Shown here one piece after another: positions 187-32,077 of a DNA stretch of 64,000 nucleotides. Made by a program: the position numbers and the translations under genes. Positions within the stretch are counted from its first letter, which is position 1; each line of letters starts with the position of its first letter. This DNA comes from Paramacrobiotus metropolitanus (lineage: Eukaryota; Tardigrada; Eutardigrada; Parachela; Macrobiotidae). The DNA is taken from the NCBI RefSeq assembly GCF_019649055.1, contig NW_026570450.1, positions 54,044 through 118,043 on the forward strand. The letters run 5' to 3'. Under the pieces are notes generated by a model that saw only the letters and a list, made by a program, of their open reading frames with translations, had not been told where the DNA came from and searched no databases.

Positions 187-1506
187 ATGGCAAGCCGCAG
201 TATATCGATCAACCTACCAAGCCTGGCATTCAACCAGCTGTTAGACAACAACGTAGCTCAGCTGTACAGCGCGGCCACCGCCCTGAAACCTGATGGAAAT
301 CTGGCAGTGTCCCCTCTCTCCATCCTGTACGCCAGTGCGCTGATGTACATCGGCTCATCCGGATCCACTAAATCCAATCTGGAAAAAAGCTTCCATTTCG
401 ACCAGTATTTCAGCAGCAATACCGACTCCGTACTCTCCGCCTTCTCCACGTCCATGGCCAACTTAACCTCGGTTAAAACCGATGGGGGTCCCTTCGTTAT
501 CAACTTGGCTAATGGAATATTTTTGCAAAAAGGTTCGCCGTTCGTCAACAAATTTAAAGATGCCGGTGTCTCCAAACTGAAATCCGAGGCACAGTTCAAG
601 GACTTCCGAACCGGCGCCGAGAAAGCCCGGGGAGAAATTAACACGTGGGTGTCTGACAAGACTAACGGGCGCATTAAAGATCTACTGCCTTCTGTCTCAG
701 CGGATGCCATTGCGATACTGGTCAACGCCCTGTACTTTAAAGCCAGCTGGGAATCCTGGGCGAAATTTGATCCCAGTCTTACCGTAAAGATGGATTTCAC
801 ACTGCTTAACGGACAGAAGACCAAGGTGAACATGATGCAGAATTTTCTATACTCGCTGGCGTATGCTGAAGATTCTACTCTGGATGCCAAATACATTGAA
901 TACACCTACACGAATAACCTCGGCGCCATGCTTTTCTTGTTACCCAATAAGAAAAACGGACTGCGCGCACTGGAGAAGAAATTAACGGCCGGTATTTTCA
1001 ATACACTGAAGAAAAAAGCCAAAGAAGAGCGAGTGTCCCTGCAGATCCCCAAGTTCAAAGTGGAAACGAGTTTCAATCTAAAGACGCTTTTGCAGAAGAT
1101 CGGCGTAAAGGAGGCTTTCGATAAAAACAGTGCTGATTTCTCTTACATGACTCCGCAAAAGCCAGTGTGGATTGGCGCTGCCTCGCACAAAACATTTGTC
1201 GGTAAGAGTGCATCTGTTTTAAAGAAACCGGTTACTGACAGCGAGTTATTTAATTTATTCTACAGCGAAGCCGGTTGTCACTTACCGATTTTGGATAATT
1301 AATGTTTTTGTTGCCTGTTTTGTTTGACAGAAATTGATGAGCAAGGCACAGAAGCCGCAGCTGCCAGTGCCTTTGAAATGCCGGAAGGAGCATCAATGCA
1401 AGAAGAGCCGCCGAAAGAATTTGTTGCCGATCATCCGTTCATCTTCGCCATCCGCCACAATCCAACCAATGCCATACTTTTCCTCGGTCGCGTGGAAATT
1501 TTTTAG
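187..1506 (+). CDS. Serpin 1 (intracellular-type), two exons
   Basis: Serine protease inhibitor fold protein of 396 aa. Exons are 187-1201 and 1331-1506, joined at GTCG|gtaaga and gacag|AA, which splits a Glu codon just before the reactive-centre hinge. Family motifs seen: NLAVSPLSI near the N-terminus, [26 protein letters not shown], the hinge [12 protein letters not shown], and the C-terminal [12 protein letters not shown] block. The small-residue hinge (GT-x-AAAA) fits an inhibitory rather than storage serpin. The reactive loop from hinge Gly to the conserved Phe is 26 residues, about five longer than in alpha-1-antitrypsin, and is acidic and Met-rich, so P1 cannot be named. The first in-frame ATG (187) starts [10 protein letters not shown] with no signal peptide, suggesting a cytosolic clade-B-like protein. 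TATAAT lies at 105-110. It is the only intact plus-strand serpin here. Confidence 0.9.
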
Positions 1507-2188
1507 CGTGCGTTTAAATAGCCCGCTAAAGAAAATGTTTTTTTTCCAAACTTACTTTAACGCTGGCTTGGGTAGAAAAAGCTTGACCAAATATTCAGCC
1601 GTTGCAAAGTTCTTAAAATTATTCGTAACTCCCGCAGCTGGATTGCGGCTATCAACAATAAAGAATTTTAGCGTAGACCGACACCATATATTATGATATA
1701 ACAGATACACTGGCAGCAGTGCAGCAGTCACACACACACACACACACACACGGATAATGCAAAGTGTGAGCGGTAAACACTTGTAACAGACAGAAAAGTG
1801 GATGGTGGTTGTGTATCACTACCGAACCTAATCTACCTTTCTCTTTCTGTCGGGCTTCGGCTGAAAGATGGATGCGATTTCATTGATTACCCACCTTCCT
1901 GCCGACTACAGATGTTCATTTCAATTGTACGCATCAGTATGTCACGTCTGCATGATCATAACTTTTTTTAGTCATGCAAGTAACCAGAATGTTTTACCGA
2001 TCCAGGTATACAACTGCTGCTCACAGTGCATGACAATGGCGCACGCACATACTACAGTAATCAGTATCTTCGTTATTTATTAGATACATTTTCTGTGCTG
2101 TACGCTTTTATGTTCATTGTGCGCCCGTATACCACAAGAAACGCCCAAAACATCCTATGACTTTATTGTAATATCATTATTAGTATTT
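1507..2188. other. Intergenic, with (CA)n microsatellite
   Basis: No gene is supported. A (CA)11 run occupies 1729-1750. The rest is AT-rich sequence without long reading frames. Confidence 0.6.
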
Positions 2189-2274
2189 CGACCAGACTTG
2201 AAGTCCCTTCGGGGTGGTCTGCTCTTGTGCCGCAATAATAATAACAATAATTATTATTATTAGTAATATCATTA
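2189..2274 (+). mobile_element. Non-LTR retroposon 3' tail with (AAT)n
   Basis: A 3'-end fragment beginning CGACCAGACTTGAAGTCCC, followed by a short hairpin-forming GC block, CTCTTGTGCCG and an (AAT)n tract. The same sequence ends the better-preserved copy at 7476-7780, where it follows a reverse-transcriptase-like C-terminal tail. This copy therefore looks like a severely 5'-truncated insertion of the same family. Confidence 0.65.
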
Positions 2275-4353
2275 TTACTACTATTCGGAGTCTTGGATCA
2301 AATCCATATCGATACATCACGCTGTTTATAGTTTTCTTTGTAGTGGGACTCACGTTAATCCCTCCTCGGACATCCGAAACGATTTGGCATATTTATAACG
2401 GCACTTCTTTATCTAAAAATACAGTTCCCACAAGTCTGCACACTGAGTGCACTTTCCTGTACTGTGTACTCATGTACAGTACATAGGGTATGCGATTCCC
2501 GTAAACATTAAGACGAGAGGTACCCAACATATGGTTAAATTGGTACACCCCCCGTGCTGCATATTGTTGGAAAGAGCGTTTCGTGATCTACAACCCGACA
2601 CCAGCATAGTTTATTAAAATTTTAAATTGAAAGAGCTATTTGGACGTTAAACAGCAGTACAACAGAAAGTTGCCAAAAGCGCTCCGTTACAGCAGTGGCC
2701 TGTCGGTCAGTTTAGTGGGCAATGGGCAGCGATCGGGCCTGCCGCCTGCTAGCGCTCCTGAACTCGTGCGTCTTCCTGGTTATCTCTCTCTCCCCGCTCA
2801 CAAAGAATAAGTAGGCCATCAAACTGGCAACGATGCGAGTAGTGATGCACCTGACAACAAATATCCTACACGGCAAGAGTTGAACCAAGGTTGAACTTTA
2901 AAATAAGTATTCTAAGTTCATTGGCATTTCAAAACAGGAGTAGAAGTTTTCACAAGAAAGCAATTAAAGGTATGCTTATATTCAAGTGGCTTATTCACAT
3001 TTTAATAACAAAATACGCGCTTTGTGCCGTAGGTCAAAACCTTGCTTAGTTCATTCGAAACTTAGGAATTACTCCTAAGCTAACAAAAATTATTACATCC
3101 GTGCAGTCTTTCCTGTTAAAGCCAGTAGGTAGCGAATTATTTGATACGTTTTGATAGTACTTATTACATTGTTACGTTTTGCTTGGTATTATTGGTAAAA
3201 AGTACTAAGGCACGAAAATGAGATGACAACAGGTTTGCACTTAGCAAGCAGTTTGCTTCGGGTCTATTCGCTATCGTAGTTCGGGAAAGACACTGAAAAG
3301 AGATGAAAAGGTTCGAGCAGGATACACAGTATGCGGGTTTCTATATGACGCGTCTCATTTGCTTTTCGCCACATGGCCCGGTTTGTATGCAATCGGCCAT
3401 TGTGGTCAAACAGTCTTCGTGGTCTGACCGGCTGACCGAATGGCTACCGGCAGGCTGGCAGGCAGAATACTCTGTGCGTGGCTTCAGTGGTCACTTGCCT
3501 GTTGTACTGAACTTTGACGCGATAGTGGCTTCCAATTTATCAAGTCCAAGAAGATATTCCTGTTACAGTGTACATTGTCGGCATCAAAGTGAACAGGAAG
3601 ACAACTACTCGCTCTATCCGTTGCACTAATTTTCATCTCGATGTGACGTCGGGTTCGCCCGGAATTTCGGTTTAAAATTTTGTTTTTGATATTTCAATGG
3701 CGTTTTTTTCGAATTTTTCAAAACCCTACCAGCAACGGATAGTCGACATCAAGATCTATCATAAGACGACATATCGTCCTAACCGGATGTATAGTGAATA
3801 TTTTCACCGGGGTCGAAGCTAAAAATTAATTTCCCCATTATTTTGTTAATGACCCTACAAAACTTCCCAAAAATATTAGTAGATGATAGCACAACATCTT
3901 GGTGGCGTACGGCAGTAGTTAAATTGACCGTACATTTACCACCGCGTGCACACAAAAAATTAGCGCAAGGGGACCATATGCTGGGTACCCCTCGTCTTAA
4001 CCGCTTTACTGTCGCTGGTTTTATCAAGCAGTAGCAATCAGTTTCTTCAGCGAGCCAGAACTCTATCTGTTAAATCAACTTCACCATGCTACAATATACT
4101 CGATATACAACTAGTATTTTGCTTAAATGGTTTACTCATTTATTTGCTCAGGCTGATGTTCCTGTAAAATAGTGTGTCAGATTTAAGCACCGGGCACTGG
4201 TTAAAGTCGCGAGTGTCGAAAAAATACTAAGAGTACGGTTTAAGCCACCAAAGTTCCATTGTTTTTTAAGTTTTCTTTCGGTCTAACTTTTTGCTGATAT
4301 TGCATTAACGGTTTAATAAGCAACCGAAAACGCAGAACAACTTTTACATTAAG
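2275..4353. other. Intergenic, no supported gene
   Basis: An ATG-initiated 108-codon frame at 3303-3629 and a short hydrophobic frame at 2722 lack family features or a continuation. About 4030-4130 is a copy of the LRR-gene upstream module also found near 6885-6975 and 10885-10975. Nothing else is recognised. Confidence 0.5.
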
Positions 4354-6509: not shown

Positions 6510-6986
6510 CCTTTTCTTGAGCCTGCCTTTAGCGGTATTTTAGATGTGATTCTTCCTCATACTGGTTAGAAAAATGCAATACGTACTGTGTGATTTTTCT
6601 ATGCCAAGAATTTATTGCGACGGAGAACACCAGAATTTAATCTCAGTTCGCTTATCTTCTTCTGCGTATGACACCACACCGTTTCCCGGTTGGCTTGTAT
6701 CAACCTCCGTCACAGCCTTATCAGTATGCATTGTAATTTCGTTGCTGTAACTTCAAACTCAGAGACCGCATCTTGTGGCGGAAATTAGTAGCATATGGGT
6801 CTCTGCGGGTCACGCTGCAAATTGTGTATATATAGAGTGTAAAGATTCAATCGATTTAACTGGATTTGTCATGAAGTGGTGATCGGTTTCGGCAGCTAGC
6901 CAGAACTGTATCTTTCAAATCAGTTTATACACAGTGCTATAATACGTACATAACTACGGTAGCTTCCTTTTGAAGTTTAAAATTTA
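6510..6986. repeat. Segmentally duplicated LRR 3' flank, copy 1
   Basis: About 6600-6990 matches about 10560-10980 through blocks such as TTCTGCGTATGACACC, GATTCAATCGA and CAGAACTNTATCTTTCAAAT. It is noncoding and derives from tandem duplication of the LRR locus. Confidence 0.7.
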
Positions 6987-7322
6987 GGGTGAGACTGCAG
7001 GCACCCCTTTCACCCCGGTTTGCTATAAGCACCCCCTTTTGCACCCTGTTTTACTATAGGCACCCCTTTTCTATTAGATAATTCTCGCACCCCCTCTTTT
7101 TCCGCGGACTATAGGCACCCATTTTTAGTTTTTTTCCCGAGCAGTGACTAAAATTTTTTGAAAGTTTTTTTTTTGTTGACAAAGATTTTTTGACGATCTG
7201 ATATGACTTGGTCAGGTATCACATAAAAAGGTGTACTAGCCTACTAGGCACTCCATCCGACAATGAGCCGCCTTCAGATCGTCTGATAACGGGGGTGAAA
7301 GGGCGTGCCTATAGCCATTTTC
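6987..7322. mobile_element. 336-bp inverted-repeat insertion, TSD TAAAATTTA
   Basis: Flanked by TAAAATTTA at 6978-6986 and 7323-7331. The left end contains several direct copies of a CTATAGGCACCCCTTTT-like unit. The right end carries the motif inverted (GGGTGAAAGGGCGTGCCTATAG). The paralogous site near 10970-11000 runs straight across without the insertion. There is no open frame of note, so it is a non-autonomous element of unknown superfamily. Confidence 0.65.
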
Positions 7323-7475
7323 TAAAATTTAACGTGGTACTCGTACATACGTTCTCGGTGACTGCCAAAACAACGTATCAGAATGAGATAAGTTCTGGAC
7401 ATTGCAACTGTTTAAAATCATAAAAAAGTACCTCTTTTTGGCTAACAAGGTTCCGTTGCATTTTTAGAAGTTATT

Positions 7476-7780
7476 ATATGGTCCAAGTAAAAGATAACAC
7501 CATGAGCTATAACCTGCGGAAGCCGGCACGGATCGAGGTTGCACGGGCAAAGAGAGTAATCGGAGAGAAGACTTTGGAAATGCGTATAAGGCGTCTTTTT
7601 GATAAAATTCTTGCTGTTAACTCTAAAATTCTCGATGCCAGTTCTGTACCTGCCTTTAAATTTCTACTCAAATCTGTGGATCTGTCTTAGTTCTTCACTT
7701 GCATTTAAAACTGTTTTTTGTTCGACCAGACTTGAAGTCCCCTTGGGGTTGTCTGCTCTTGTGCCGTAATAATAATAATA
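7476..7780 (+). mobile_element. 5'-truncated non-LTR retroposon 3' end
   Basis: The frame 7499-7690 encodes SYNLRKPARIEVARAKR...G...R...LF.KI, resembling the extreme C-terminal tail after reverse transcriptase in CR1/Jockey-type elements (YNLR, then R..G...R, then a SxxxFKxxL end). It is followed by the 3' block CGACCAGACTTGAAGTCCC and an (AAT)n tail. In the paralogous module near 11960 the flanks (AAGTTATT / CTTAGGTGCGACC) are adjacent, so this is an insertion of about 305 bp. No catalytic domain remains. Confidence 0.65.
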
Positions 7781-7886
7781 ATTCTTTAAGTGCGACCTTT
7801 TTCTGACATTGTATAAATAACTTTCTATACATTCAGTTTATTACTGACCGTAACATACCCTATACCTGACCACCCCATACCGTAAC

Positions 7887-7990
7887 ATGATGGAAAGCAG
7901 GGTGTCGTTGCGATTGTTGATTTTGGTTGTTGGCCTGCAACTATTACGGAATTGCGATTGCGGTTGCTTTCACAATGAACTTGTTACATA
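7887..7990 (+). pseudogene. Orphan signal-peptide exon of LRR family
   Basis: Starts ATGATGGAAAGC and encodes MMESRVSLRLLILVVGLQLL, nearly identical to exon 1 of the LRR gene at 12059. The splice donor found in both intact genes (GCNG|gtcagt) is mutated, so the frame runs on to TAA. No exon 2 or 3 follows within 4 kb. A TATA-like TATAAATA lies about 75 bp upstream and is shared with the 12-kb copy. This is a promoter-plus-exon-1 duplicate, probably non-functional. Confidence 0.75.
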
Positions 7991-8954: not shown

Positions 8955-8958
8955 TTAA

Positions 8959-9637
8959 GGGAAGTGGCCCGGTACATGGTACCAAATTCGTGTACGTGCA
9001 CGAAAACTTTCGCTTTCGCGCACTCCCAAACACATTTTTGTTTCGGTTTATGACGTTTTGTAGCCAGAAGATTTGTATACACTGGCGTAAAAACCGTTTG
9101 TGCGCGCAACATCCGGTTCGGGAGTTATGGCTGTTAAAAAATTCCAAAAAGTGTAAATGCATTCAGGTGTACCAAAAGTCTCATTATGGACCGATCTCCC
9201 TCAAATTTTGCACGTAAATGCGCATGTCTATGAAGATCGTTTTTACACCGATCCAGACTTCCATGATTTTTTTCAAATTTTAAAATGAATTTTAAAATTT
9301 TTGAAATTCATTTTAAAATTTGTAAAACATGCTAGAACAGTGGATCGGTGTAAAAACGTTCTTCGTGGTTACGTGCATTTACGTGCAAAATTTGAAGGAG
9401 ATCGGTCCATAATGAGACTTTTGGTACACCTGAACGCATTTAAACTTTTTGGAATTTTCTAACAGCCATAGCTTCCGAACCGGATGTTGCGCGCACAAAC
9501 GGTTTTCACGCCAGTGTATGCAAATCTTCTGGCTACAAAACGTCAGAAACCGAAACAAAAATGTGTTTGGGAGTGCGCGAAAGCGAAAGTTTGTGTGCAT
9601 GTACACGAATTCGGTACTATGTACCGGCCCACTTCCC
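8959..9637. mobile_element. 679-bp palindromic MITE at TTAA
   Basis: The two halves (8959-9298 and 9299-9637) are reverse complements with only scattered mismatches, centred on an AT-rich TTTTAAAAT tract. The ends read GGGAAGTGG...CCACTTCCC between two TTAA tetranucleotides (8955-8958 and 9638-9641), the target preference of piggyBac-type transposases. All open frames are mirror images of one another and encode nothing recognisable. A transcript would fold into a hairpin of about 340 bp. Confidence 0.85.
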
Positions 9638-9641
9638 TTAA

Positions 9642-15154: not shown

Positions 15155-17828
15155 ATGGCAAGTCCGGCGTTCAGCCAGCTTTTAGACACCAACATCGCCC
15201 AGCTCTACAACGCGGCTACCGCAGCGAAACCTGATGGAAACCTGGCAGTGTCCCCGTTGTCCATATTATACGCCAGCGTGCTGATGTACATTGGCTCCTC
15301 TGGATCCACCAAATCTAATTTGGACAAGAGCTTCCATTTTGACCAGTATTTCAACAGCCGACTCCGTTCTCTCCGTCTTCTCGACGTCCATGGTCAATTT
15401 TACCTCCGTTAAAACCGGTGGTGATCCCTTTGTTATCAACCTGGCGAATGGAGTGTTCGTGCAAAAAGGCGTACCCTTCGTTAACAAATTCAAAGACGCC
15501 GTTGTTTCGAAACTGAAATCGGAGGCGCAGACAGAGGACTTCAGAACCGACGCCGAGAAGGCCCGGGGAGATATTAACACGTGGGTGTCAGACAAGACTA
15601 TAACGGGCGCATTCAAGATCTGTTGCCGGAAAATAGTGTCTCAATAAATACCACTGCGGTGCTGGCCAACGCCCTGTACTAGTACGTGTTTTTATTCGGC
15701 TTCGGCCAGCATACATAATAAATCGCCTGCGCAGGTTTACACTAATTAAAAGCATCAAATTTTTAAACATTAAAAAAACATCCAAAATCGTTAGTGTCAC
15801 GCATGATCTTGGGACGTGCGTTAAGTGAACCCAAAACAGCTGCTGCATTTCCACGGACTACCGCTAGACTGAAACGTTGTCTTAAAAAGGCGGTAGACCG
15901 AGGTTCTCCGGTAACTTCACGAATCTTTCTGCCGACGAAACGGATCAGCTCGGCGAAAGGCGTTCCGAAAGTCCCGAACGTCTCGACTGCCAGCGGGTAA
16001 AACAGAAAACCCATATCTTCGATAAAATCGTACGTCCGACGCTTGCTTGCTTCCGCCATTTGTGCTACACTTCCCGCTTTCTTCGAGCTAGCATGCACAT
16101 GAGATACAGCCACCGTGTCCCAGCATGTCGCGTCCCATACAAGCGCCTTACCATCGCGCACCGGAATCAACGTCATGCCGTCCGGCCGCTTGTTGTTGCG
16201 TGCAGACAATCCCAACGGTTCGTTTTGACAAGGATAACCCGCAATTTCTAGTCCTCGCTTGACCTCATTGTTTAACTCGACATGCCGCGACCATCTGCCT
16301 TTGCTGCTTGAACAGGACAAACCATGGTGACCGTTCGTTTCCACTCGGCTTCCGCAGTTTACGCAATCGTGTTCCTCGACTACGGGTAGACCAAATCGAA
16401 GGGCGACGCCGATTCTCACTTCTTCGTCCCGCAGGAAAGTATGCAGATTTGGTTGCTGGGAGAGCATTCAACCAAGCGCCGGAGTCGCGCTGAAAAGCGG
16501 CCAACAGTACTGCTTTATCCGTTTCGCTCGTAGCGGCTGTCGTCAGCGAGGACACGATGCCGTCTATCGTCGGTCGATCCCATGTCCACTGAAACTTCCT
16601 GCTCTCTTCAGCTGGAGGTTCGCATTTTGTCTGTTCAGACCACTGCTGTATAACAGGATCCAGAAGATCTGCCGTGGCGGGTTGGTAAATTTCTGAAACC
16701 AACGAAACCACTGAATGCGCCGATGCCAAAAAGGCAGGAAAAACTAGCGATTTAGTGGTCCGCAGTCCCAGTCCTCCATCCCTGACAGGCAGAGTCATTT
16801 GGCTCCACTGAAGATCGTTGGCACGTACGTTCAAGATGGACTGCATGCCCTGTACTTCAAAGCCGCCCTGTACTTCAAAGCCAGCTGGGCAGACTATGCC
16901 AAATTTGATTCCGGAGACACACACACGGACACCTTCACGTTTCTTAACGGGCAGACAACCTGGGTGAGCATGATGCAAAAGACTGTTTCTCATCTGGCGT
17001 ATGGCGAAGACTCTACTCTGGATGCGAAATACATCGAGTACCCTTATACCAATAACCTCGGCGCACTGTTGATTCTCTTGCCCAACAAGAAGGACGGACT
17101 ACGCGCGCTGGAAAGAAACCGACGGCCGGAATTTTCGGCACTCTGCAGAAGAAAACCACAGAAGAGATAGTGGCGGTCAAGATTCCCCGGTTTAGAATGG
17201 AAGCCACTTTAAATCTCAAGGCTATGTTGCAGACCATTGGCGTCAAGGATGCTTTTGATCAGAACACTGCCGATTTCTCTAAAATGACTGCACAGAAGCC
17301 GGTGTGGTTTAGCGATGCATTCCATCAAACATTTGTCGGTACGAGAGCAGTTATGCTTTTGAGAAACCGATTAAGGACAGAGGATTACGTAACGTAATGG
17401 AATTTGATGATTAATCCAGTTACTAATTTCGCCTTTGTCGTGTATTACTAGTACGCTTCGCCTATTTATGACGGTTTGCTTTACGCTACTTTGCTAATAA
17501 ACTTACTGCTAAGCAGGTGACCTTTGGTCCATACTTATTTAGCTCTACCTAATATTTAGGTAGCAAGTAATAAATTTTACTTGACTGGAATCCGATTTTT
17601 ACTTTCGTAATTGTTGCTTATTAACGTTTGCTTGGTTTTTGTTTGGCAGAAGTTGATGAGGAAGGAACGGAAGCCGTGGCAGCCAGTGCTCTCTCTGAAA
17701 TGCTAGTGACGGCATCTGAGCCCCAAGACCCAACGAAAGAGTTCATCGTCGATCATCCGTTCATCTTTGCCATCCGCCACAATCCAACCAGTGCCATACT
17801 TTTCCTTGGTCGCGTGGAAACCTTTTAG
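15155..17828 (+). pseudogene. Serpin pseudogene 2, interrupted by a retrotransposon
   Basis: Serpin sequence begins MASPAFSQLLDTN and ends with an RCL exon at 17650-17828 (hinge [12 protein letters not shown], then [12 protein letters not shown]). Lesions seen: a frameshift near 15355 (after FHFDQYFNS); a 2-nt insertion near 15600 in the [11 protein letters not shown] block; the 1,166-bp retroelement at 15681-16846 inside NALY|FKASW; an 18-bp tandem duplication (GCCCTGTACTTCAAAGCC twice at 16847-16882); and a 1-nt loss near 17115 after RALE. The exon-1 donor (GTCG|gtacga) and exon-2 acceptor are still present. It is the plus-strand relative of serpin 1 and cannot encode a full serpin. Confidence 0.9.
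15681..16846 (-). mobile_element. 5'-truncated non-LTR retrotransposon, nuclease end
   Basis: The minus strand encodes the C-terminal part of a non-LTR polyprotein. A post-RT segment (DLQWSQMTLPVRDGGLGLR...) comes first. Then a zinc-knuckle-like C-x2-C...H...C stretch (CVNCGSRVETNGHHGLSC) leads to a block with RPDG and VWDATCWDT, the arrangement of the CCHC plus restriction-like endonuclease of R2/CRE-type elements. One frameshift lies near 16445 (NALP / PNLHTFL). The element has no poly(A) and ends ...ATAAAAACACGTACT. A 10-bp target-site duplication GCCCTGTACT flanks it (15671-15680 and 16847-16856), showing insertion into serpin exon 1. The RT catalytic domain is missing. Confidence 0.85.
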
Positions 17829-18571: not shown

Positions 18572-20036
18572 ATGTTTAAAGTTGTGCTGGGATTTTTGCC
18601 CTTGATATCCCCATTATGGGCCGATGTGCGTAGCAATAGCAATGCTACCAACGCACAGCAACCAGCTGTAATAGCCGGGAATTCAGCGGAAGTGGAGCCG
18701 ATTGTCGCGGCTGCTTCTGGATACGGATACCAAAGGTCGGTGAATATTTTTAGGTACTTAAAAACATAACGTTATTTGCTTTACTTAATAACTGGTGAAA
18801 TACAAATTTAGATCTATATCAAGCAATATTATTTTCTGCTTAATTTTTGAAAAATTTTAACTGCATACTGTAAGTATACAAATTCAGTTCCATCTTCCGG
18901 TTCTGGAAGTTTAGCATAGAGGCGTATTAGTTGCCATCGTGCGATATTTAAATTTTCATCTGCCATATCTTACGTTGTATGTAATGCAAAATCATTACTG
19001 TGATTTCTTTATTGCTACGATTGTTTTTAGTAAGCCATACAGCAGTTATTATGGCTCATCGTATTCTGGCGGACTGTATTCGGATAGCCAGTATGGTGGT
19101 GGATGTTACGGAAAACCCGTGGGTTATCGCGGTGATCCATCGTACGACTGTAAAGTGTTCGATGTCTGCCAATCAGACGGACGGTTTGATCGATTTTATT
19201 GTCCGGATTACACCAGATTTAATAACTACTTATCAATCTGCGATTGGGCAGACAAGGTAAGCGGATAATAAACAATACAGTGTGCCAATATGCCATAAGC
19301 ACGATGTATCACAGAAGTACTAGCACGTACATCATGATTATTAATTAATTGTAATCATGGTTTTAATATTATTCAAATTTAATACATACTGTACGTTTGT
19401 AGACTACAGACGTGCATAGCAGTATCGTAGACCATGAGCGTTATAACGTGTAACCCAATGTGGCAGCTTAATACTTGCGTCCGCTAACAATATCTGTAAG
19501 CATGCGGTATCAGCAAGAGTAGAATGAAATTAATAATAAAACAATTACGCATTATATTATATTATTGCAGTAAAACAATACAGATGTTCTGAAAACGATT
19601 CGTAACAGCTGCAAAGCGTGCTTTGCGTTTTATCCAGGTTGACAGTTATTGCAATCCGATTTACCCGTATAACAACGATGACTACTCGTACGGATATGAA
19701 ACCCGCTACAACGGTTACGAGAAGCCCAAATACGGAAGTTCCTACAAACCGTCGTATGAGCCACCCCAGTATTATCTGCCCAAATTCGAATATCCAAAGT
19801 ACGAGCCGGTTTACGCTTACAAGGAACCCCGCCAAAGTTCCTACGGAGAATACAACAGCCCGCCCAAATATGAGCACCGTTATGCGGACTATCACAAAGA
19901 ATCCTACGCGCCGGTGGACTATGGGAAGTACACTGATAACACGTACAGCGCCGAGTACAAGGTTGGATATGACAAAGTGTACGAGCCTACGTACGATTCA
20001 CCGTACGTACCAAACTTCTTGACGAAGAAGTATTAA
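18572..20036 (+). CDS. Secreted CBM14 (peritrophin-A) Tyr-rich protein, three exons
   Basis: Predicted 262-aa extracellular chitin-binding protein. Exons: 18572-18735, 19031-19256 and 19638-20036 (AAAG|gtcggt, ttttag|T, AAG|gtaagc, atccag|GTT). Residues 1-19 form a signal peptide (FKVVLGFLPLISPLWA). One six-Cys CBM14 domain spans exons 2-3: GGGC, YDC, DVC, FYC, SIC and SYC, with aromatic FDRFYCPDYTRF. The exon-3 tail is dominated by Tyr, Pro, Lys and Glu (repeats such as YEPPQYY, KYEPVY, YEPTYDSPY), typical of cuticular or peritrophic structural proteins that may be crosslinked through Tyr. A single domain with a low-complexity tail resembles CPAP1-type cuticle proteins. AATAAA lies at 20267-20272. 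Part of exon 3 is duplicated at 25090-25372. Confidence 0.85.
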
Positions 20037-20518: not shown

Positions 20519-22210
20519 TTACAATTTCTCAACTCGGCCAATGAAAAGTATGGCGTTGGTTGGATTGTGGCGAATGGCAAAGATGAAGGGATGGTCTGCG
20601 ATGAAATCTTTGGGTGGCGCTTGTTTGGGAGCAAACGGAGATGCCCCAGCCATCATCACGAAGGCGCTGGCAGCGGCAGCTTCTGTGCCTTTTTCGTCGA
20701 TTTCTGCAAATGCACAATTGTATTATAAGCAGAACAACAGGATGAATTAGATGTACATGTGCGGTTTGCTAGTAGACATATAAAGAATCAGATGGAACTG
20801 ACAACTTGCATCACACATAATTGATAATAATTACACCATCATTACTATGTAGTATTTGTACGTGCATAATAAGTATAGATATTAGCATAGAACTACACTT
20901 GCTCCTATAGGAGTAGAATAATTACGTGTAAGTACTGGATCATAAACCGGCAGTTACCGGCTTCCGTTTTTTACGTGCACTCGAATCAACCATACGCACT
21001 CGTACATCATGATTGCATGATTATACAGAAATTAAGTACTAGTACCTACTAGCTACAGGCTACACATAAATGTACGCGTATAGGTTGTATTAAACATGTA
21101 CCTACCAACAAAGGTTTTATGGAAAGCGTCGCCGATCCACACCTTCTGTGGTGTCATGTTGGAGAAATCGGCACTGCTCTTCTCGAAAGCCTCCTTCACG
21201 CCAATCTTCTGCAGCATGGATTTCAGATTCAAGTCCGCTTCGACTTTGAACTTGGGAATCTGCAGGTTCACTCGTTCGCTCTTGACTTTTTTCTTTAGAT
21301 TACCGAAAACATTCGCCGTTAATTTTTTTTCCAAGGCGCGCAGTCCATCTTTCTTGTTGGGGAGAATAAAGAGCATCGCGCCCTGGTTATTAGTGTAGGT
21401 ATATTCGATATATTTGGCGTCCAGATCAGCATCCTCCGCGTAGTTCAGACCGTGAAGGAAATTCGACATGGTGTCCACTTGGACTGTTTGGCCATTCAGC
21501 AGGGTGAAGTCTCGTTTCTTGGTGTCATGAGGATTGAATTTCAGCGACGATTCCCAGCTTGCTTTGAAATACAGGGCGTTGGCCAACACCGCAACGGTAT
21601 CCGGTGAAACAGCGCCACTTGGCAGCAGGTCTTTGATCCGCCCATTGGTCGTATCGGACACCCACGTGTTGATTTCACCGCGGGCTTTTTCGGGATTGCT
21701 TTGGAAGTCTTTCGTCATCACTTCCGATTGCAGTTGATTTACCGCACCGTTTCTATACTTTTCCGTTAATGGTGCGTTCTGCTTCACGAAAATGGCGTTG
21801 GCTAAGTTGAGGACAAATGGCTCATCGCGGCCGGTGGATAGAAAAAATACGGGTGGTTCCAGTTCAATTTCCATCGCGCCATTCTGCGAATTCGGTTTCC
21901 TGGGTTTCGGTTTCGGAGTTTTGGACATTGTGAGGTTTGGCATGGCCGTGGAGAAGGCGGAGAGCACGGAGTCGGCATTGCTGTTAAAGAACTGGTCGAA
22001 ATGGAAGCTCTTGTCTAAATTGGATTTGGTGGATCCGGATGAGCCGATGTACATCAGCGCGCTGGCGTAGAGGATAGACAACGGTGACACTGCCAGATTT
22101 CCATCAGGTTTCAGGGCGGTGGCTGCGCTGTACAGCTGGGCGACATTGGTGTCCAACAGCTGGTTAAACGCCAGACCTGGCAGGTTAACGTTGATCGAAC
22201 GACTTGCCAT
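20519..22210 (-). CDS. Serpin 3 (insertion type), two exons
   Basis: 429-aa serpin. Exon 1 is 22210-21106 and exon 2 is 20703-20519 (GTTG|gtaggt, ttgcag|AA). Conserved blocks include [35 protein letters not shown] and the hinge [12 protein letters not shown]. The loop then reads VMMAGASPFAPKQAPPKDF, three residues longer than in serpins 1 and 6. Residues about 98-129 are an extra segment (PKPKPRKP followed by a hydrophobic and acidic stretch) absent from serpins 1 and 6, in the region before the PFVLNLANAIF strand. There is no signal peptide. TATAAAG lies at 22283-22289, about 75 bp upstream. An in-frame upstream ATG at 22426 exists, but the MASRS start is conserved in serpins 1 and 5 and lies just below the TATA box. 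Confidence 0.9.
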
Positions 22211-22289: not shown

Positions 22290-22299
22290 AGGTGACGCG

Positions 22300-23272
22300 G
22301 CCCTGGTTGTTTTAAGAATTTTATTACAATCCGGCTTTTGTGCCCGCTAGACATTAAAGTGAATGTCGACGCGCCGTTATTAGCAGGAAAATCGCCACAT
22401 TCGGTAGCCCTATTGTACATAGGCATTTGTTGTTGTATTAATTTTGTACATTAATGCCTGAGTATGAGTCACTAATAACTGGTTTGAGTACGAACCATGC
22501 GCACTGAGATTGATAGCTGTATGGGGAAATGATGATAATGTCATTGGAACTCCAATATCATTGTCATTGAATGCATACAACGTGTCTATCGTCTGATGCC
22601 GTAATGTACTCGTAACAACATCTTTAGACGATAGGCTTACACCCTCCGAGCAATGGGCACTGGGCGCTGCACTGAGTAAAATATGGCATACGTGGACGAT
22701 GGAAATGTTTTCTTAACTCAGGAAGCTGGGAAAATTGAATGAAAGGAAATCTAAATCCAGGAAAATAAAAGGAAATGCAGATCCAAATTTTAACTGCGCA
22801 GTCAAAGTATAGTTGTATTCGCACAGCTGCTCAATACTTTTAAAGACATCCGTTTCAGCAGATGGATTGCTTAACTTTTGTGAATTCAGTGATGTATTGT
22901 AAGCCATCCTTCAGCACGACTGCTTTTACTGTTCAGAAAGAGTACGCGGCTTTTGTGGTCTTGCAGATTTATTAATTTATATTCGCTAGCTACACCGAAG
23001 TGTAAAGTACGGCCGATCTCGTGCACGCTAATATGAAAAACGTCCATAACATCACACTTAGTCAGTTACAATATGTATGCAATGTCACGGCAAGTGTTAT
23101 TTGGAGCGCTTGCATCGAGTAAGTAGGCAACTTCAGCACAGTATCAAGTATGTACAGTAGGTACTTGTACGGCACATACATTTCTTCAAAGCAGTAAAAG
23201 GTAAAGTGTTATTATTACTAACAACCTGACACTCAGAAAGGAACAATGGGAGACCCTTTTCTAGGCACCATT
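22300..23272. other. Intergenic between serpin 3 and serpin pseudogene 4
   Basis: No gene seen. Much of it (about 22430-23270) matches about 29790-30630 between serpins 5 and 6, as expected from the block duplication. Confidence 0.55.
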
Positions 23273-24631
23273 TTAAAAACTCTCAACACGGCCAATGAAA
23301 AGGATCGCATTGGTTGGATTGTGGCGGATGGCAAAGATGAAAGGATGGTCAGCTGTGAACTCCTTGGGTGGCGCTTGATTGAACGCTGATCCGGCTAACA
23401 TAACAAAAGCGCTCGCAGCGGCTGCTTCCGTGCCTTTCTCATCGATCTCTGCCAGCCCATAATTTTTTTATCCCTTAAACCAATATGCATTCCTGTGACA
23501 CTATCTATAGTTCTATACTAGGTAGCACTTAAAATGACTGAAATTTATGTCCATAATTGAATGAAACAATGCATACTATGGTCTTAAAAGCAGAAAAAGT
23601 TAAAATACTGGTTCCGGTTACACCGGTGCAGTGCAATTACCGACACATTAATGTTTTATGGAAGGCATCACCAATCCACACCGGCCTGAGCTTCTGCGAG
23701 GTCATACCGGAGAAATCCACACTGCGCTGCTCAAAACCTCGTTCACACCAATCTGTTTTAACATATCCTTCAAATTCAGATCCGCTTCTACTTTGAACTT
23801 GGGAATTTGCAGTATAACTCGCTCGCCTGTTGCTTTCTTCTGCAGATTACCGAAGACATTCACTGTCAGCTTTTTCTCCAGAGCGCGTAGTCCATTCTTC
23901 TATTGGGCAGCAGAAAAAGCATGGCGTCCTGACTGTTAGTGTAACTGTATTCGATATATTTAGCATCCAGGTCGGAATCTTCAGCGTACGGTAATCTGTA
24001 CGCGGAATTCGACATTGTGTCCACTTGGATGTTCTGTCCATTCAGCAGCGCTAAGTCTCGCTTCTTGGTGTTACTGGGACTAAATTTCAGTGCAGTTTCC
24101 CAGCTTGCCTTGAAGTATAAAACGCTGGCCAACACTGCAAAGGAGGACGGTGATACAGCATCTGTTGGCAGCAGGTCTTTGATCCGCCCGTTGGTCTTGT
24201 CAGACACCCAGGTGTTGATTTCCCCGCGGGCTTTTTCGGCGTTGACTCTAAAGTCTTTAAACTCGGCTTCCGATTTCAGCTGGTTAACCGCGCTTGACGA
24301 AGGATGCGCCTTTTTGTAAATACACGCCGTTAATCAGGTTAATGACAAACGGATCATCCCTCCTGGGCGTTTTAACCGACGTAAAATTGGCCATGGAGGT
24401 GGAGAATGCGGAGAGTACGGAGGCATTATTCATAAAATACTGGTCGAAATGGACGCTTTTGTCCGAATTGGACTTGGTTGATCCGGATGAACCAATGTAG
24501 ATCAGCGCGCTTGCGTACAGGATGGACAAAGGGGAGACTGCCAGATTCCCATCGGGTTTCAGGGCGGTGGTCGCGCTGTACAGCTTGGCGACTTTGGTGT
24601 CCAAGAGCTGCTTAAAAGCTGGATTTGCCGT
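23273..24631 (-). pseudogene. Serpin pseudogene 4
   Basis: A paralogue of serpin 6. Exon-1 sequence runs from ANPAFKQLLDTK (24631) down to about 23650; the RCL exon is 23448-23273 (hinge [12 protein letters not shown], loop [16 protein letters not shown]). Lesions: no ATG at the position of serpin 6's start codon; a 14-nt deletion near 24293 compared with serpin 6; a 1-nt loss near 23898; further indels near 23690 and 23740; and a disrupted exon-1 end where KTFVG should precede the donor. The RCL exon itself is intact and nearly identical to that of serpin 6, pointing to recent duplication or gene conversion. Confidence 0.85.
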
Positions 24632-25089
24632 TTTATACACGCTTGAAGCATTGTTATCTGTAGAAAATTTATCGGCCCGCGACGTCTTTGCCACACTTTA
24701 CAGACGATTATATGGCAAATTTTTGCGGTTCAGCGATAATAATCGCATAGCCGGCTTCATTATGCAGTTATCGATTTCTATGCTAGTGAGTTTGTGTAGA
24801 ATAGCATGAATGCAGTGTACGGCGTAATGCACTTGTACTCTGGGCGGAAGTGTCGGAAAGGTCATCAAAACAAGGGTCGTCTAAAGGGTTTTTGCTGATA
24901 GACTAACCGGTTGTTAACGGGCGTAAAGCCTTCTAGAATACAGCAGTTTACTCTGTATGAGAAATTACACGAAGATAGCTATCATGCTGCACAATCTCCA
25001 CTTTTTATCATAACCGTTTTGAGTTCGCTACATGTACTACGAGTAACAGCGTATAGCAACTACCCTAGTTGAAAAACAGCAGCCCTGGA
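24632..25089. other. End of duplicated block 1
   Basis: About 24700-25020 matches about 32150-32465 (for example CGGAAGTGTCGGAAAGGT and GAAATTACACGAAGAT). The homology stops near 25020, marking the end of the first block copy. Confidence 0.65.
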
Positions 25090-25372
25090 TTTTGTCGCCT
25101 CAGTATTACAGTATCTGCCCAAACTCGAATATCCCAGGTACGAGCCGGTTCACGCTTATTAAGAGCCCCGACGAAACTCTTACGGAGAATACAACAGCCC
25201 GCCCAAAATATGGGCACCGTTATGCGGACTATTTCAGGGAATCCTACGCTCCAGTGGACTACGGAAAATACACGGATGACACGTACAGCGCCGAATACAA
25301 AGTTGGATATGACAAGGTCCACGAGCCGACGTACGATTCGCTTTACGTACCACATTTCTTAACGAAAAGTAT
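25090..25372 (+). pseudogene. Truncated duplicate of CBM14 gene exon 3
   Basis: Matches the Tyr-rich tail of the gene at 18572 from about YYLPKFEYP to its end (HRYADY, YAPVDYGKYTD, YSAEYKVGYDKV are readable). Small indels break the frame near 25160 and 25200, and the TAT codon before the stop has lost a base. There is no signal peptide, CBM14 domain or 5' exon. It marks the left edge of duplicated block 2. Confidence 0.85.
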
Positions 25373-25867
25373 TAAGTTAATTACTAAGATACTTCTTCGA
25401 CGTACGGGTTCACATGTCTCCGGAGTGGAACGATAGATTTGGTATGGGTGTGCAGTATTTGCCAATTGCACAGGAGTGCTGATTGTTTTCACGCGCAGAT
25501 AATTTATTTTAATTTAAACGATGGGTTTAGACATTTAGCTTATGTTGTTCATTTGATCGTGTTGTTAACGGAAAAAAAATGTCCAACATTAAATATTCCT
25601 TATTCAGAGAAATAACGGATGTGAGTTTCCAGTAAAAATCCTTTGATATTATGACGTCGTATAGTTTAAGTAATCAAAGGCTGACGTCGAGACTTCCTTA
25701 TTTACTTTCACGTATTTGGCGCTCCGCTCCCATTATACCAGGGTACTTATGTAAAGTAGCGAGTTGTTATGTACTTACTACTCACAATCAGCATTATCTT
25801 GATGTAATACGTTAAGCAAAGTCAAGGTAGTAATACTTTCGGTTATACATCGGGCCCCACAACCAGT

Positions 25868-27673
25868 TTACAATTTCTCAACACGGCCAATGAAAAGTAT
25901 GGCGTTGGTTGGATTGTGGCGAATGGCAAAGATGAAGGGGTGGTCAGCGATGAATTCTTTGGGCGACGCTTGTTTGGGAGCAAATCGAGATGCTCCAACC
26001 CACATTACGAAGGCGCTGGCAGCGGCAGCTTCTGTGCCTTTCTCGTCGATTTCTGCAAGTCCACAATCGTATTAAAGTAATAAGCAAAACCAAATGAACT
26101 GTTACTGGCTGGTTCATTTTCAGTTTGTTAGTCGATAATAAACAGAATCGCAGTTATAACAGGAACACATCATACGTCATTACAACACCATTAATTTTGT
26201 TAATGTAGTACGTACCAGTACATACTGTACTATGCCATGCTAGCAACAGAAATACTAAGTATACGAATAGAATAATTAGTACAGACAATGTATTGAATGT
26301 CAATTCGGCTTCCGTGTATTACGTGCACTCAAATCATACAGAATTGTTATTATGTATCTTATTATGTTACGTGCTGTGAGTGCAGATTTTTGCGCAGTCC
26401 AATCTCATGTTAATTGGGACAAATTCTTCATTTGAGTATTCCCGTTGAGCGAAGCTCGCCAATGTTCATTATGTATATTATGTTACATAATTATTATGTA
26501 TCTATTGCGTGTCTTATGGTTATATCATTAGGTACTACAAATTACAGTATATAGACTGTGCCTACCAACAAATGTTTTATGGAAAGCATCGCCAATCCAA
26601 ACCGGCTTCTGTGGTGTCATGTTGGAGAAATCAGCACTACTCTTGTCGAAAGCGTCCTTCACGCCAATCTTTTGCAGCATAGACTTCAGATTCAAATCCG
26701 CTTCTACTTTAAACTTGGGAATTTGCACGCTAACTCGTTCTCCCTTGACTTTTTTCTTCAGATTACCGAAAACATTCGCCGTTAATTTTTTTTCCAAGGT
26801 GCGCAGTCCATCTTTCTTGTTGGGGAGAATAAAGAGCATCGCGCCTTGGTTGTCAGTGTAGGTATATTCGATATATTTGGAGTCCAGGTCACCATCCTCC
26901 GCATACGCCAGATTGTGAAGAAAATTCGACATGGTATCCACTTGGATGGTCTGTCCGTTTAGCGGGGTAAAGTCTCGCTTCTCCGTATTTCGAGGGTTGA
27001 ATTTCAGCGATGATTCCCAGCTTGCCTTGAAATACAGGGCGTTGGCCAGCACCGCAACGGTAGCCGCTGAGACAGCACTTTGCGGCAGCAGGTCTTTGAT
27101 CCGCCCATTGGTCATATCTGACACCCAGGTGTTGATTTCGCCGCGGGCTTTTTCGGGATTGCTTTGGAAGTCTTTCGTCGTCACTTCCGATTGTAGTTGA
27201 TTAACTGCACTGTTCCTAAACTTCTCCATCAGTGGTGCGTCCTGCTTGACGAAAATGACATTGGCTAGATTGAGGATAAATGGTTCGTCGCGGTCGGTGG
27301 ACAGGAACATTACGGGTGGTTCTAATTCGATTTCCATCGCGCCATTCTGCACCTTCGGTTTGCTGGGTTTCGGTTTTGGAGGGTTGGACATTGTCAGGTT
27401 TGGCATGGCCTTGGAGAATGCGGAGAGTACGGAGTCGGCACTGCTGTTGAAGTACTGGTCGAAATGGAAACTCTTGTCTAAATTGGATTTGGTGGATCCG
27501 GATGAACCGATGTATATCAGTGCACTGGCGTACAGGATTGACAAAGGAGACACTACCAGGTTTCCGTCAGGTTTCTGGGCGGTGGCCGCGCTGTACAGCT
27601 GGGCAACGTTAGTGTCCAGGAGCTGGTTAAACGCCAGACTTGGCATGTTAACGCTGATCGAACGACTTGCCAT
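25868..27673 (-). CDS. Serpin 5 (insertion type), two exons
   Basis: 430-aa serpin, sister of serpin 3. Exon 1 is 27673-26566 and exon 2 is 26052-25868. The core is well conserved: [40 protein letters not shown] at the exon end, hinge [12 protein letters not shown]. It has the same extra segment as serpin 3 ([20 protein letters not shown]). The loop is [19 protein letters not shown]; the Arg is a plausible P1 for a trypsin-like protease, but only by inspection. MASRS start, no signal peptide. TATAAAG lies at 27745-27751, 72 bp upstream. Confidence 0.9.
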
Positions 27674-27759
27674 GTTGATTGTACCACGTTGGAAGAAAAT
27701 ATGTTCGAACAAAATTTCTTTCCTGCACTGTATGTTGCAGCCGGCTTTATATGATGGAG

Positions 27760-30633
27760 CGGCCCTGGTAGTTTTAATAATGTTTTTATTACATTCAGGC
27801 TTTTGTGCCCGCTGGACATTAAAGTGAATGCTGATGCACCGTTACCAGCAGGAAAATCGCCACATTCGGTCGCCCAATATTATACTGTACAAGAAACAGC
27901 TGCGGCTTCGCCTCCGCGTTTCCCGTGATCCACGGCCCGAATCAACGAATAGCTCGGTTATACATTCACGTAGCGATCTTAATCACTGGATAGTGGTGGT
28001 AGCTCGGTCACTTACTGAGTCAATTAGCGATTTTGCTCATTGGACAATAGTGGTATCTCGGTAACTCAATCGCTCAGCTAATGATTTTGCTCACTGGACA
28101 GTAGTGGTAGTTCGGTAACTCGCTCACTCAACTAACGATTTTGCTGACTAGACAGTAGTGGTATAGCTCGGTAACTCGCTCACTCAGTTAGCGATTTTGC
28201 CCATTGGAGAGTAGTGGTAGCTTGCCCATTGGACAGTATAAACTTACAGTACTTACTTATAACGCATTATCCGTATGGCTAAAAACCTACCATTTTTTTT
28301 ACAAATGGGCCGGCAACGAAGATCAATAAGTTACCTTGTGACTGCTTAATTTTTTGGTTGGTGTTGCAAGAAATAAGTTCAATTTATTCCGCTCGATCTG
28401 CGTATTTAATAATGTGTGCTACGAATTGTTTACAGTCAAAATTTTTTTGAGTTTCAAGGTCACCTTGAAACTGGGTTGGATCGTTTGCGGCATTAGCAGA
28501 CCTCAAGCATATCCAGCTTTACCATTCACAGCCTGGTATTGCTTTAACAATTTTTTTGGTTCGAAGTCCAAAGAGATAAGCAGTAACCAATAACAACACA
28601 TACCGATGGACTTATGCGAGCGATGTTTGAATGCTACGCTTACTAGTCACGCATCATCGGTAAAATGCATTATAAAAATATAGTTGACTGAAAACTTGTA
28701 CATTTAGCTTATACACAACAGTTAACATCACAACGCAGTACACTCAATCAGCAGAAAGCAGCCTCGGGAGGTCTAAGAACAGAGAACAACTGATCTAAAT
28801 TTGCTCCCGGCATTTATCGTAAGACGATTTGCATAAGCGGCACCGGAGACTCGGGGAGCACCGAAGGGATAAGGAATGAGAAATAACAGGAAAATTAATG
28901 ATACTTAAAGAATTTTGACTAAAAGAACCTCATATTTTTCTTACAAAATAATTGTCGCTTTAAATTTTCTACAGAGAAGCTACGTGGTGCATTGTTCATT
29001 GCAAGTATAAGAGGGAAACATTTAGCGTGATGGGTCAAAATGTTTTGGACCGCTCTTCTAAAGAATGTGCTAGGATATTTTTCGAAAAGAAGGTTTCGCC
29101 TTTGTCAAAAATTGATTAATCAAGCAGATCAATTAACTAATTAAGCAGATCAGTTGCTAATTAAGTCTCAGTTCATTTTGTGGCGCTGAATTAAACTGGA
29201 AACGTTTACCGTTGTTAGCCGATATGGACAGTATTTTTGAATTAATTAGCGTTAATTAGCGCAGTGTAAACTGTAATTGTAATTAACGCAAGCAGAAAAA
29301 TTACCTAGTAGTCTGATAATACAAATGATGTCTGTAGATTAATTTTTAATTGCTCATTTAGACGCCTAAATATGTACTATTAAAGTGTATGTGCGTAGTA
29401 GACTGTTGTTTTCATGGCCTGCGTGCCTGATGGCGTGATGCGTATTTGCAAAACGGAGCTGTTCACGCGGGTATCTGTAAAACGTGCCGTATCTTTCCTT
29501 CGACCAGTTAAAAAGCAGATCGGTTCGGAACGTTATGAATCATAATCCTGGCCAAAACAAAACCAGACCAGAGATAAGAAAGCCAGAGGTGACTGAGGAC
29601 GCGTATTGTGCCGGCACGATTCTGATCGGACGTATTCAAAAGCAAAAGCCATGTGACGCAGTTCTGGACCAGGCCGATCTAACTGTGGTGTCAGATTTTT
29701 TTAAAAGTTCTTGGTTAGAGAGATCTCCAGACTATGGGGAGACCGCGCGTAGTATTGATCTTTTTCTTAATATATCTGTATTTGTGTACTATTACTCACA
29801 AATAACTGGTATAATAACTGCTTCGAGCACAAACCATGCGTACTGCGCTTGATAGATGTATCATGGTGCTGATAATGTCACTTGTTCGGGTTGTTCCCCA
29901 AAATCACTGGCGCTGCAACGTAACATCTCATGCTGCATTATTGCGAAAAAAAGGGGTTTCCCGACGTCACATTTTTACACAGTACCTTATTCCAACAAAA
30001 TTAATGCAATAAACAACCTTAAACCATGGAAGTGTGGTTTTCGTTTCACCGGTGCTGTGACCTGCACCCTTTGGACATTGGTCACTGCGTTGAGTAAAAT
30101 ATGGCGTAAGCAGACGATGGGAATGTTTTCTGGATTCAGGAAGCTCCGGAATACAAGGAAATATTTCGGAACAAAAGTCTAACGGCGCATACAAAATATA
30201 GTTGTACTCGCACAGTTGCTCAGTATTTTTAAAACATCCGTTCAGCAAACGGATTGTTTTACGATTTAGAACTCTGTAACGTATTGTAAGCCATCCTTCA
30301 GCAGGACTGCCTTTACTTTTTAGAAAGAGTACACTGCTTTTGTGATCTTGCAAATTTATTTATACTAGCTAACTACGAAATGTTTCGTATGGTCGATCTC
30401 GTGCTCATAATTATTTGAAAAGCATCAATAACATCACAGTTACCATACCTATGTACGCATGTCACGGCATGTGTTATTTGGATCACTTGTATTGGACAAA
30501 TAGGCAACAGTCAGCATAAACAGTACAGTGCTTGGACATGTTCTTCAGTTATGTAATCAAAGGTGACCTGTCATATTACTATTAACCTGAAACTTAGAAA
30601 GCAACAATGGGAAACCCTTTTCTAGGCACCATT
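27760..30633. other. Long intergenic gap between serpins 5 and 6
   Basis: About 29790-30633 matches 22430-23272 of block 1. The stretch between about 27890 and 29780 has no counterpart there, so it is an insertion or was lost from block 1. It contains a minisatellite (27955-28245). An ATG frame at 29535-29852 encodes about 105 aa without recognisable features. No gene is supported. Confidence 0.5.
27955..28245. repeat. Minisatellite, unit about 55-60 bp, about five copies
   Basis: The unit contains GGTAGCTCGGTAACTC followed by CGCTCACTCA, then GATTTTGCTCACTGGACAGT. Successive units drift by substitutions and small indels, and the last one is truncated. Confidence 0.75.
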
Positions 30634-32077
30634 TTAAAAACTCTCAACACGGCCAATGAAAAGGATCGCATTGGTTGGATTGTGGCGGATGGCAAAGATG
30701 AAAGGATGGTCAGCTGTGAACTCCTTGGGTGGCGCTTGATTGAACGCTGACCCGGCTAACATAACAAAAGCGCTCGCAGCGGCTGCTTCCGTGCCTTTCT
30801 CATCGATCTCTGCAAGCCCATAATTGTTTATCCTTCAAACCAATACAGGGTGAAATCGCGTGACACTACTCAAAATGATTGAAATTTGAAGTCCACAATT
30901 GAATTGCGATTAATTACGATTTGAATTAATCCATTAATTAATCCACAATTTGAATTACGTTTAATTACGATTAAGTCCACAATCGTATTAAATGCATACG
31001 CGGCTTAAAAGCAGACACAATTAAAAGACCGGTTCCGGCAAACATCCTGGGTGTCGTGATCGACCAGGTGTACTTACCGACGAATGTTTTATGGAAGGCA
31101 TCGCCAATCCACACCGGCTTCTGTGAGGTCATACCGGAAAAATCCGCACTGCTCTGCTCAAAAGCCTCCTTCACTCCGATCTTTTTTAACATGTCCTTCA
31201 GATTCAGATCCGCTTCTACTTTGAACTTGGGAATTTGTAGTGTGACTCGCTCGCCTGTTGCTTTTTTCTGCAGATTACCGAAGACATTCGCGGTCAGCTT
31301 CTTCTCTAAGGCGCGCAGTCCATCCTTCTTATTAGGCAGCAGGAAGAGCATGGCTCCCTGATTGTTAGTGTAACCATATTCGATATATTTTGCATCCAAG
31401 TCGGCATCTTCAGCATACGGTAGACGGTAGGCGAAATTTGACATAGTGTCCACTTGGGTGTTCTGTCCATTCAGCAGTCTAAAGTCTCGCTTCTTGGTGT
31501 TCATGGGGTTAAATTTCAGTGCAGTTTCCCAACTTGCCTTGAAATACAGGGCGTTGGCCAGTACTGCAATGGAGGATGGTGACACAGCATCTTTTGGCAG
31601 GAGGTCTTTGATCCGCCCGTTGGTCTTGTCAGACACCCAGGTGTTGATTTCCCCGCGGGCTTTTTCGGCGTTGACTCTAAAGTCTTTAAACTCGGCTTCC
31701 GATTTCAGCTGGTTAACCGCGCCGTCTTTGAACTTGTTAACGAAGGGTGCGCCTTTTTGTAAAAAGACACCACTAACCAGGTTAATGACAAACGGATCGT
31801 CCCCCCTGGGCGTTTTAACCGAGGTAAAATTGGCCATGGACGTGGAGAATGCGGAAAGTACGGAGTCGGCATTACTGTTGAAAAACTGATTGAAATGGAA
31901 GCTCTTGTCTAAATTGGATTTGGTGGATCCGGATGAGCCAATGTACATCAGCGCGCTGGCGTACAGGATGGACAAGGGGGACACTGCCAGATTTCCATCA
32001 GGTTTCAGGGCGGTGGCCGCGCTGTACAGCTGGGCAACGTTGGTGTCCAAAAGCTGGTTAAAAGCTGGGCTTACCAT
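30634..32077 (-). CDS. Serpin 6, two exons
   Basis: 391-aa serpin. Exon 1 is 32077-31078 and exon 2 is 30809-30634 (GTCG|gtaagt, ctgcag|AG). It starts [13 protein letters not shown], the same start type as pseudogene 2. The frame is open further upstream but has no other ATG. Core blocks: [49 protein letters not shown], hinge [12 protein letters not shown]. The loop [16 protein letters not shown] is 26 residues from hinge Gly to the conserved Phe and has no basic residue before the Pro-Pro. It lacks the serpin 3/5 extra segment. No signal peptide. A TATA-like CATATAATC lies about 75 bp upstream (near 32155). Confidence 0.88.

Follow-up and report, generated by a model that had tools for sequence, protein, structure and literature searches.

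A seven-locus tardigrade serpin cluster with an inherited pre-hinge loop exon, constrained reactive loops and apparent exon-sized gene conversion

We report a cluster of seven serpin loci in a tardigrade genome, for which the following account is probably correct: the loop exon, which begins before the hinge, is inherited, the reactive loop changes under constraint, gene conversion has acted between loci, and the same exon has been multiplied in another serpin clade. The gene layout, intron phases, rates of change and sequence identities on which the account is built are read directly from the DNA. As to mechanism, the array would have grown through tandem duplication and one block duplication, one loop exon would have been overwritten through gene conversion between array loci, and a separate serpin clade appears to have multiplied the same exon inside single genes (six intact copies and a decayed one on C89, and two copies on C30).

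Methods

The window, i.e. the whole stretch of DNA analysed (G000:C230:54044-118043), is the final 64 kb of a contig of 118,043 bases, and positions without a contig prefix refer to it. The genome-wide sample comprised 34 serpin places, one of them the upstream member of the array, and in addition C89 in two pieces. The P1 residue was predicted by counting 17 residues from P17. Close serpin pairs were compared for loop and core rates (25 pairs listed), and pairs with a core dN >0.35, a core dS >=1.6 or too little shared core were dropped. The phylogenetic tree (38 rows) was computed with FastTree from the core plus the first loop, the second C89 gene being represented by the loop that belongs to it, and rooted at the midpoint; the broken or incomplete loci 2, 4, L028 and L037 were left out.

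Results

Array inventory

Six serpin loci lie between positions 187 and 32077 of the window (Table 1); loci 1, 3, 5 and 6 are intact and loci 2 and 4 are dead. A seventh, intact member is located upstream of the window, from C230:43079 onward, and the whole array thus comprises seven loci over ~43 kb, five intact and two dead. The first-pass annotation of the window had described six serpin loci, each with a single intron in the Glu codon before the hinge; this layout stands, but six working genes do not, given the two dead loci and the intact member further upstream. Gene models obtained by comparison give loci 1, 3, 5 and 6 two exons each, separated by one phase-1 GT-AG coding intron (129, 402, 513 and 268 bases, respectively) that falls within the Glu codon preceding the hinge. 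The joined protein of locus 6 matches the Pfam Serpin profile with 329 bits over positions 9-368 of 370, i.e. a full serpin domain. Each locus has one loop exon, as the annotation had stated for the array, and the loop strings it quoted are present in the sequence. Loci 3 and 5 have in common a Lys/Pro-rich insert of ~27 residues in the helix C-D region, which we take to lie between helices C and D, and the other intact members are without it.

Table 1. Coordinates of the array features (positions in the window) and of the loop exons of the multi-loop gene on C89 (positions on C89)
Feature	Coordinates	Strand	Basis or remark
Serpin locus 1, core exon, intact	187..1201	+	Gene model, core match
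Serpin locus 1, loop exon (hinge, reactive loop, C-terminus), predicted P1 Gly	1331..1506	+
Serpin locus 2, dead core broken by foreign ORF block	15155..17338	+
Mobile-element-like ORFs within locus 2	15763..17098	-	Without Pfam match
Serpin locus 2, loop exon, frame open	17650..17828	+
Serpin locus 3, loop exon, predicted P1 Gly	20519..20703	-
Serpin locus 3, core exon, intact, lysine/proline-rich insert	21106..22210	-
Loop exon of serpin locus 4, 57 codons with a single synonymous change relative to locus 6	23273..23448	-
Exon-sized high-identity tract in common with 30584-30845 (253/263 bases)	23223..23485	-
Serpin locus 4, dead core	23641..24631	-
Serpin locus 5, loop exon, predicted P1 Gly	25868..26052	-
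Serpin locus 5, core exon, intact, lysine/proline-rich insert	26566..27673	-
Serpin locus 6, loop exon, predicted P1 Gly	30634..30809	-
Serpin locus 6, core exon, intact	31078..32077	-	Gene model, Pfam
C89, intact loop exons	216486, 215308, 214548, 213748, 212716, 211988	-
C89, decayed loop exon	~215.88 kb	-

The core of locus 2 is split by a block of opposite-strand ORFs (15763-17098); the two ORFs presumably recall a mobile element, and a Pfam scan of them returned no match. In locus 4 the start codon is gone, and comparison with locus 6 shows deletions of 3, 14, 1 and 1 bases and insertions of 6 and 4 bases, the last directly before the donor; the 14-base and the two 1-base deletions and the 4-base insertion break the frame. 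Self-comparison of the window shows that 25.1-32.5 kb repeats 19.8-25.0 kb, and loci 3+4 and 5+6 are therefore products of one block duplication, which bears out the earlier view that the array expanded by gene duplication. A chitin-binding protein ORF (18915-20036, + strand; Pfam CBM_14) adjoins locus 3, and a partial copy of it (25047-25436, + strand), carried along by the block duplication, lies beside locus 5.

Other features of the window and the genome

Two similar single-ORF genes for 7TM receptors are arranged in tandem on the + strand (58707-59786 and 61508-62593); the former matches Pfam 7tm_1 and the latter was assigned by eye from its similarity. An inverted repeat at 8955-9641 is 91% identical to its own reverse complement over 687 bases. 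A CAHS fragment used as probe gave 18 matches in the genome (best 80% identity, E 5e-40); CAHS proteins are not known outside tardigrades, and the genome is accordingly taken to be that of a tardigrade. An arthropod source was considered and rejected: a genome search with PF00379 (R&R cuticle protein) gave no match, a type of search that cannot establish absence, and no TTAGG repeat run was found. A tardigrade telomere repeat was not found either, COX1 had no match in the assembly, and a search for the lipocalin family gave no pointer to the organism.

A loop exon common to the serpins of the genome

All 48 loop exons in the sample, two fragments of one decayed C89 exon being left out of the count, begin with the second base of one and the same pre-hinge codon. 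A matching phase-1 donor is present in 36 of the 41 loci and was not found for L028 (core start only), L037 (without core match), L035, L039 and the dead locus 4. The Pfam serpin matches in the genome (141) end and start accordingly: of the 88 core matches extending to profile position 295 or further, 81 break off at 309-321, directly ahead of the loop, and the separate last-exon matches start at 309-317 in 17 cases out of 17, these counts being lower bounds since the genome searches score candidates only. Two matches, both on C31, run unbroken to profile position 370 and have no intron. The split residue is located three residues before the P17 Glu. In alpha1-antitrypsin numbering, with Glu342 as P17, the split residue is 339 and the intron 339a; a phase-1 intron at this point, before the hinge, means that the last exon carries the hinge, the bait loop and the C-terminus.

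The array layout is thus beyond chance, yet genome-wide rather than specific to the array, and the dedicated loop exon is ancestral in the serpins of this genome and not an innovation of the array. An orphan loop exon with a stop (L037, C101:334870-335031), for which the fetched stretch gave no core match, closely resembles the loop of the gene at C101:343533. Among the titles and abstract openings consulted, no description of tardigrade serpin gene structure or loop exons was found.

A constrained loop that outpaces the core

Core dS is low in two pairs of array members, at 0.31 between the upstream member and locus 1 and 0.43 between loci 3 and 5. Pooled over both, non-synonymous changes amount to 9.5 in 77.7 loop sites vs 77.7 in 1642.5 core sites, i.e. 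the loop codons change at ~2.6 times the core rate (Fisher p 0.005, with few changes behind the test and no correction for the choice of region), and none of 351 core windows of equal size exceeds the loop rate. A faster loop is what the first-pass annotation had expected of this comparison. The C-D region insert is nearly as fast as the loop (0.121 vs 0.122). In the same two pairs the hinge is almost constant and the C-terminus is slower than the core at the protein level. Loop dN/dS is 0.06-0.57, below 1 throughout, in the seven of ten array pairs where it can be computed, synonymous sites being nearly saturated in some of these and saturated in the other three. The intact genes show a core dN/dS of 0.10-0.14 at a core dS of 0.31-1.5 and have therefore been under selection. 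We conclude that the array loop is constrained even though it outpaces the core.

The other close serpin pairs of the genome span a range from an unchanged loop (C46/C471) to one changing at ~10 times the core rate (C3 pair), which makes the array ordinary for this genome.

Relaxed constraint on redundant duplicates, whose loops drift while the copies share one job and some copies die, is a possible reading that we nevertheless do not favour: two dead loci out of seven, intermediate loop dN/dS values and a retained predicted P1 would all be expected from it, but the near-constant hinge and the slow C-terminus would not, nor would the persistence of intact genes over the core divergence given above with such low core dN/dS. 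Positive selection, with array loops tracking new protease targets, is in our judgement unlikely. It would agree with the excess of loop changes over every core window, with the C3 pair, and with the variation that P1 would show (Ala, Glu, Ala, Val and Ala in the upstream member and loci 1, 3, 5 and 6) if counted one residue earlier; against it, a dN/dS above 1 was not found for the loop in any of the seven computable array pairs (three being saturated), the insert matches the loop in rate, loci 4 and 6 have one and the same loop, and by the usual count every one of the five intact genes has Gly as its predicted P1. On the dN/dS values and the predicted P1, the changing protease targets that had been suggested for the array lack support as well. 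Constraint on a loop that is nevertheless faster than its core is the reading we retain.

Predicted P1 and likely target

Gly is the predicted P1 in six of the seven array loops, i.e. also in locus 4, and Val in that of the dead locus 2. In favour of the 17-residue count, six other serpins (L022, L023, L024, L026, L028 and L030) have an Arg-Ser pair as P1-P1', and in the alignment the predicted-P1 Gly of locus 6 stands opposite Ser354 of SERPINB3/B4. P1 of SERPINB3/B4 is given as residue 354, with the bond at 354/355 (PMC4136820). An Arg at P2 in seven loops (L007 first loop, L012, L013, L018, L029, L032 and L033) and at P1' in two (L007 second loop and C89 at 212716) suggests that some genes may have their true P1 one residue away from the counted one. 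The loop differences flagged earlier correspond, by the usual count, to P5, P3, P2 and the primed side.

The bait would offer a bond between small residues (P1 Gly, with Ala or Ser at P1'). A P1 Gly is unusual among serpins aimed at serine proteases, and this could point to non-inhibitory proteins; such a role is improbable for the array, as all five intact members have the hinge GTEAAAA, with Thr at P14 and Ala at P12-P9, i.e. a canonical inhibitory hinge. The solved structures nearest to locus 6 are SERPINB3/B4, PAI-2, leukocyte elastase inhibitor and the designed conserpin, and the corresponding search with locus 3 at a strict cut-off of 1e-60 listed no match. The N-termini of the array proteins have no strongly hydrophobic stretch and no visible signal peptide, which agrees with the earlier suggestion of intracellular inhibitors, but an upstream 5' exon carrying a signal peptide may exist and would undo it. 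Taken together, the canonical hinge and the N-termini suggest that the array proteins act as cytosolic suicide inhibitors, and it is reasonable to view them as directed at an elastase-like or papain-like protease. Inhibition of cysteine proteases in the manner of SERPINB3 is a possibility.

Apparent loop-exon exchange between loci 4 and 6

The loop proteins of loci 4 and 6 are identical. At synonymous sites the loop exons differ at 1 of 38.7 vs 63.5 of 220.2 for the cores (p 0.0003 over 134 core codons, for one of the 25 pairs listed), and for loops 3 and 5, likewise products of the block duplication, the count is 8 of 41.3. The shared tract (23485-23223 vs 30845-30584) is flanked by adjoining intron of 38-70% identity and drops to 49-66% past the stop. 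This looks like an exon-sized gene conversion, in either direction. Other patches of high identity pair 24292-24172 with 31721-31601, and 21937-22171 with 31830-32065 (91.5% identity). The open loop frame of locus 4 was considered as a sign of selection and rejected as such; with the synonymous sites nearly identical as well, conversion and not selection would account for it. That a live core splices to the loop of a neighbour, e.g. core 5 to the loop of the dead locus 4, we regard as very improbable: the two are on the same strand 3.1 kb apart, locus 4 retains its loop frame and acceptor though its core is dead, and the same junction serves several loops behind one C89 core, but recent conversion explains the intact locus 4 loop and every loop exon has its own stop.

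Multi-loop genes in a separate clade

On the minus strand of C89 (L005/L006, 211812-216486) one core is followed by six intact tandem loop exons and a decayed one. The core gives three exon matches, the last core exon ending at 216805, and the next C89 core is at ~208.9 kb, past the row of loop exons. All six acceptors are in the right phase and the bait regions differ (AFGCSM, VDCSLY, KKKSAL, VMLCSM, VMLRSM and IMKCSF). Between the exons at 213748 and 212716, non-synonymous differences are found at 7.5 of 45.7 loop sites vs 0 of 85.7 in the remainder of the exon (p 0.00014); the loop dN is 0.19 and dS 0.20, and dN/dS is therefore ~1 even there. A neighbouring C89 gene has a single loop similar to the last one in this row (support 0.96), which makes this one-loop copy appear to be derived from a multi-loop gene. 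A second case, L007 on C30 (409717-411869, - strand), has two loop exons, one with the furin-site-like bait RQKR-S; they end in GRVAQL and GRVAQF, neither being an ER retrieval signal. The C30, C124 and C89 genes form one clade apart from the array (FastTree support 0.97-0.99).

Judging from their layout, the loop exons of C89 and C30 most likely serve as alternative last exons. Poly-A-like hexamers occur 99-360 bases behind all six intact C89 loop exons and were given no weight; none was found within 700 bases of the second C30 loop exon or of loci 3-6. Both layouts are present in one genome, and the contrast drawn earlier, duplication instead of alternative loop exons, is hence valid for the array but not for the genome.

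Discussion

With more reserve we suggest that tardigrades might have evolved their own pre-hinge switching of loop exons, in which one junction would be used in two modes: cassette arrays (C89 and C30), and gene arrays that swap loops by conversion, where loci with dead cores would be stored loops. In insects, serpin gene copy number is inversely related between species to the share of alternative-loop genes (PMC10513286). Here both modes are found at one intron position in one genome outside insects, which poses directly the question why one clade multiplied exons and another genes. The pre-hinge cassette is, moreover, a module unlike the usual insect one and offers a natural test of which splice positions permit loop swapping. 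That loop cassettes are exchanged between serpins has been mentioned before (PMC2556349). Intracellular serpins restrain lysosomal proteases in worm and human cells (PMC8755728); if cytosolic array members were to do the same, they would be candidates for a part in tardigrade stress tolerance, which is speculation.

The array resembles SERPINB3/B4 in being of a putatively intracellular type with recent duplicates that differ chiefly in the loop (PMC4136820, PMC8755728); SERPINB3 also has a small P1 residue, as predicted for the array, and among solved structures SERPINB3/B4 match locus 6 best. For SERPINB3/B4 the loop has been reported to be under positive selection, of which no sign was seen in the array. 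Ixodes scapularis has many tandem serpin genes, 20 of 74 being two-exon genes with a common junction (PMC13116602) and carrying the loop on the second exon in all but two, as here; in contrast to the tardigrade array, most of the tick genes are intronless, the junction is well upstream of the loop and the proteins are mostly secreted. Lancelet L2/L3 serpins and vertebrate antithrombin also have a pre-hinge intron at codon 339, which lies after the third base (339c; PMC2746811) and not after the first (339a) as here, i.e. the two introns are two bases apart and differ in phase.

The alternative-loop serpins of insects (Manduca serpin-1, Drosophila Spn42Da, Anopheles SRPN10 and Pteromalus PpSerpin-1) have the loop on the last coding exon, and share with the C89 and C30 genes, not with the array, a loop exon that can be multiplied behind one core. 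Loop cassettes have reportedly been described in nematodes too (Kruger et al. 2002). Insect alternative-loop genes are spliced mainly directly behind the hinge, with 161 of 192 at +1 and 19 at +4 (PMC10513286). The tardigrade junction lies before the hinge, 39 bases upstream of this main insect position, which implies that exon multiplication on C89 and C30 probably arose separately.
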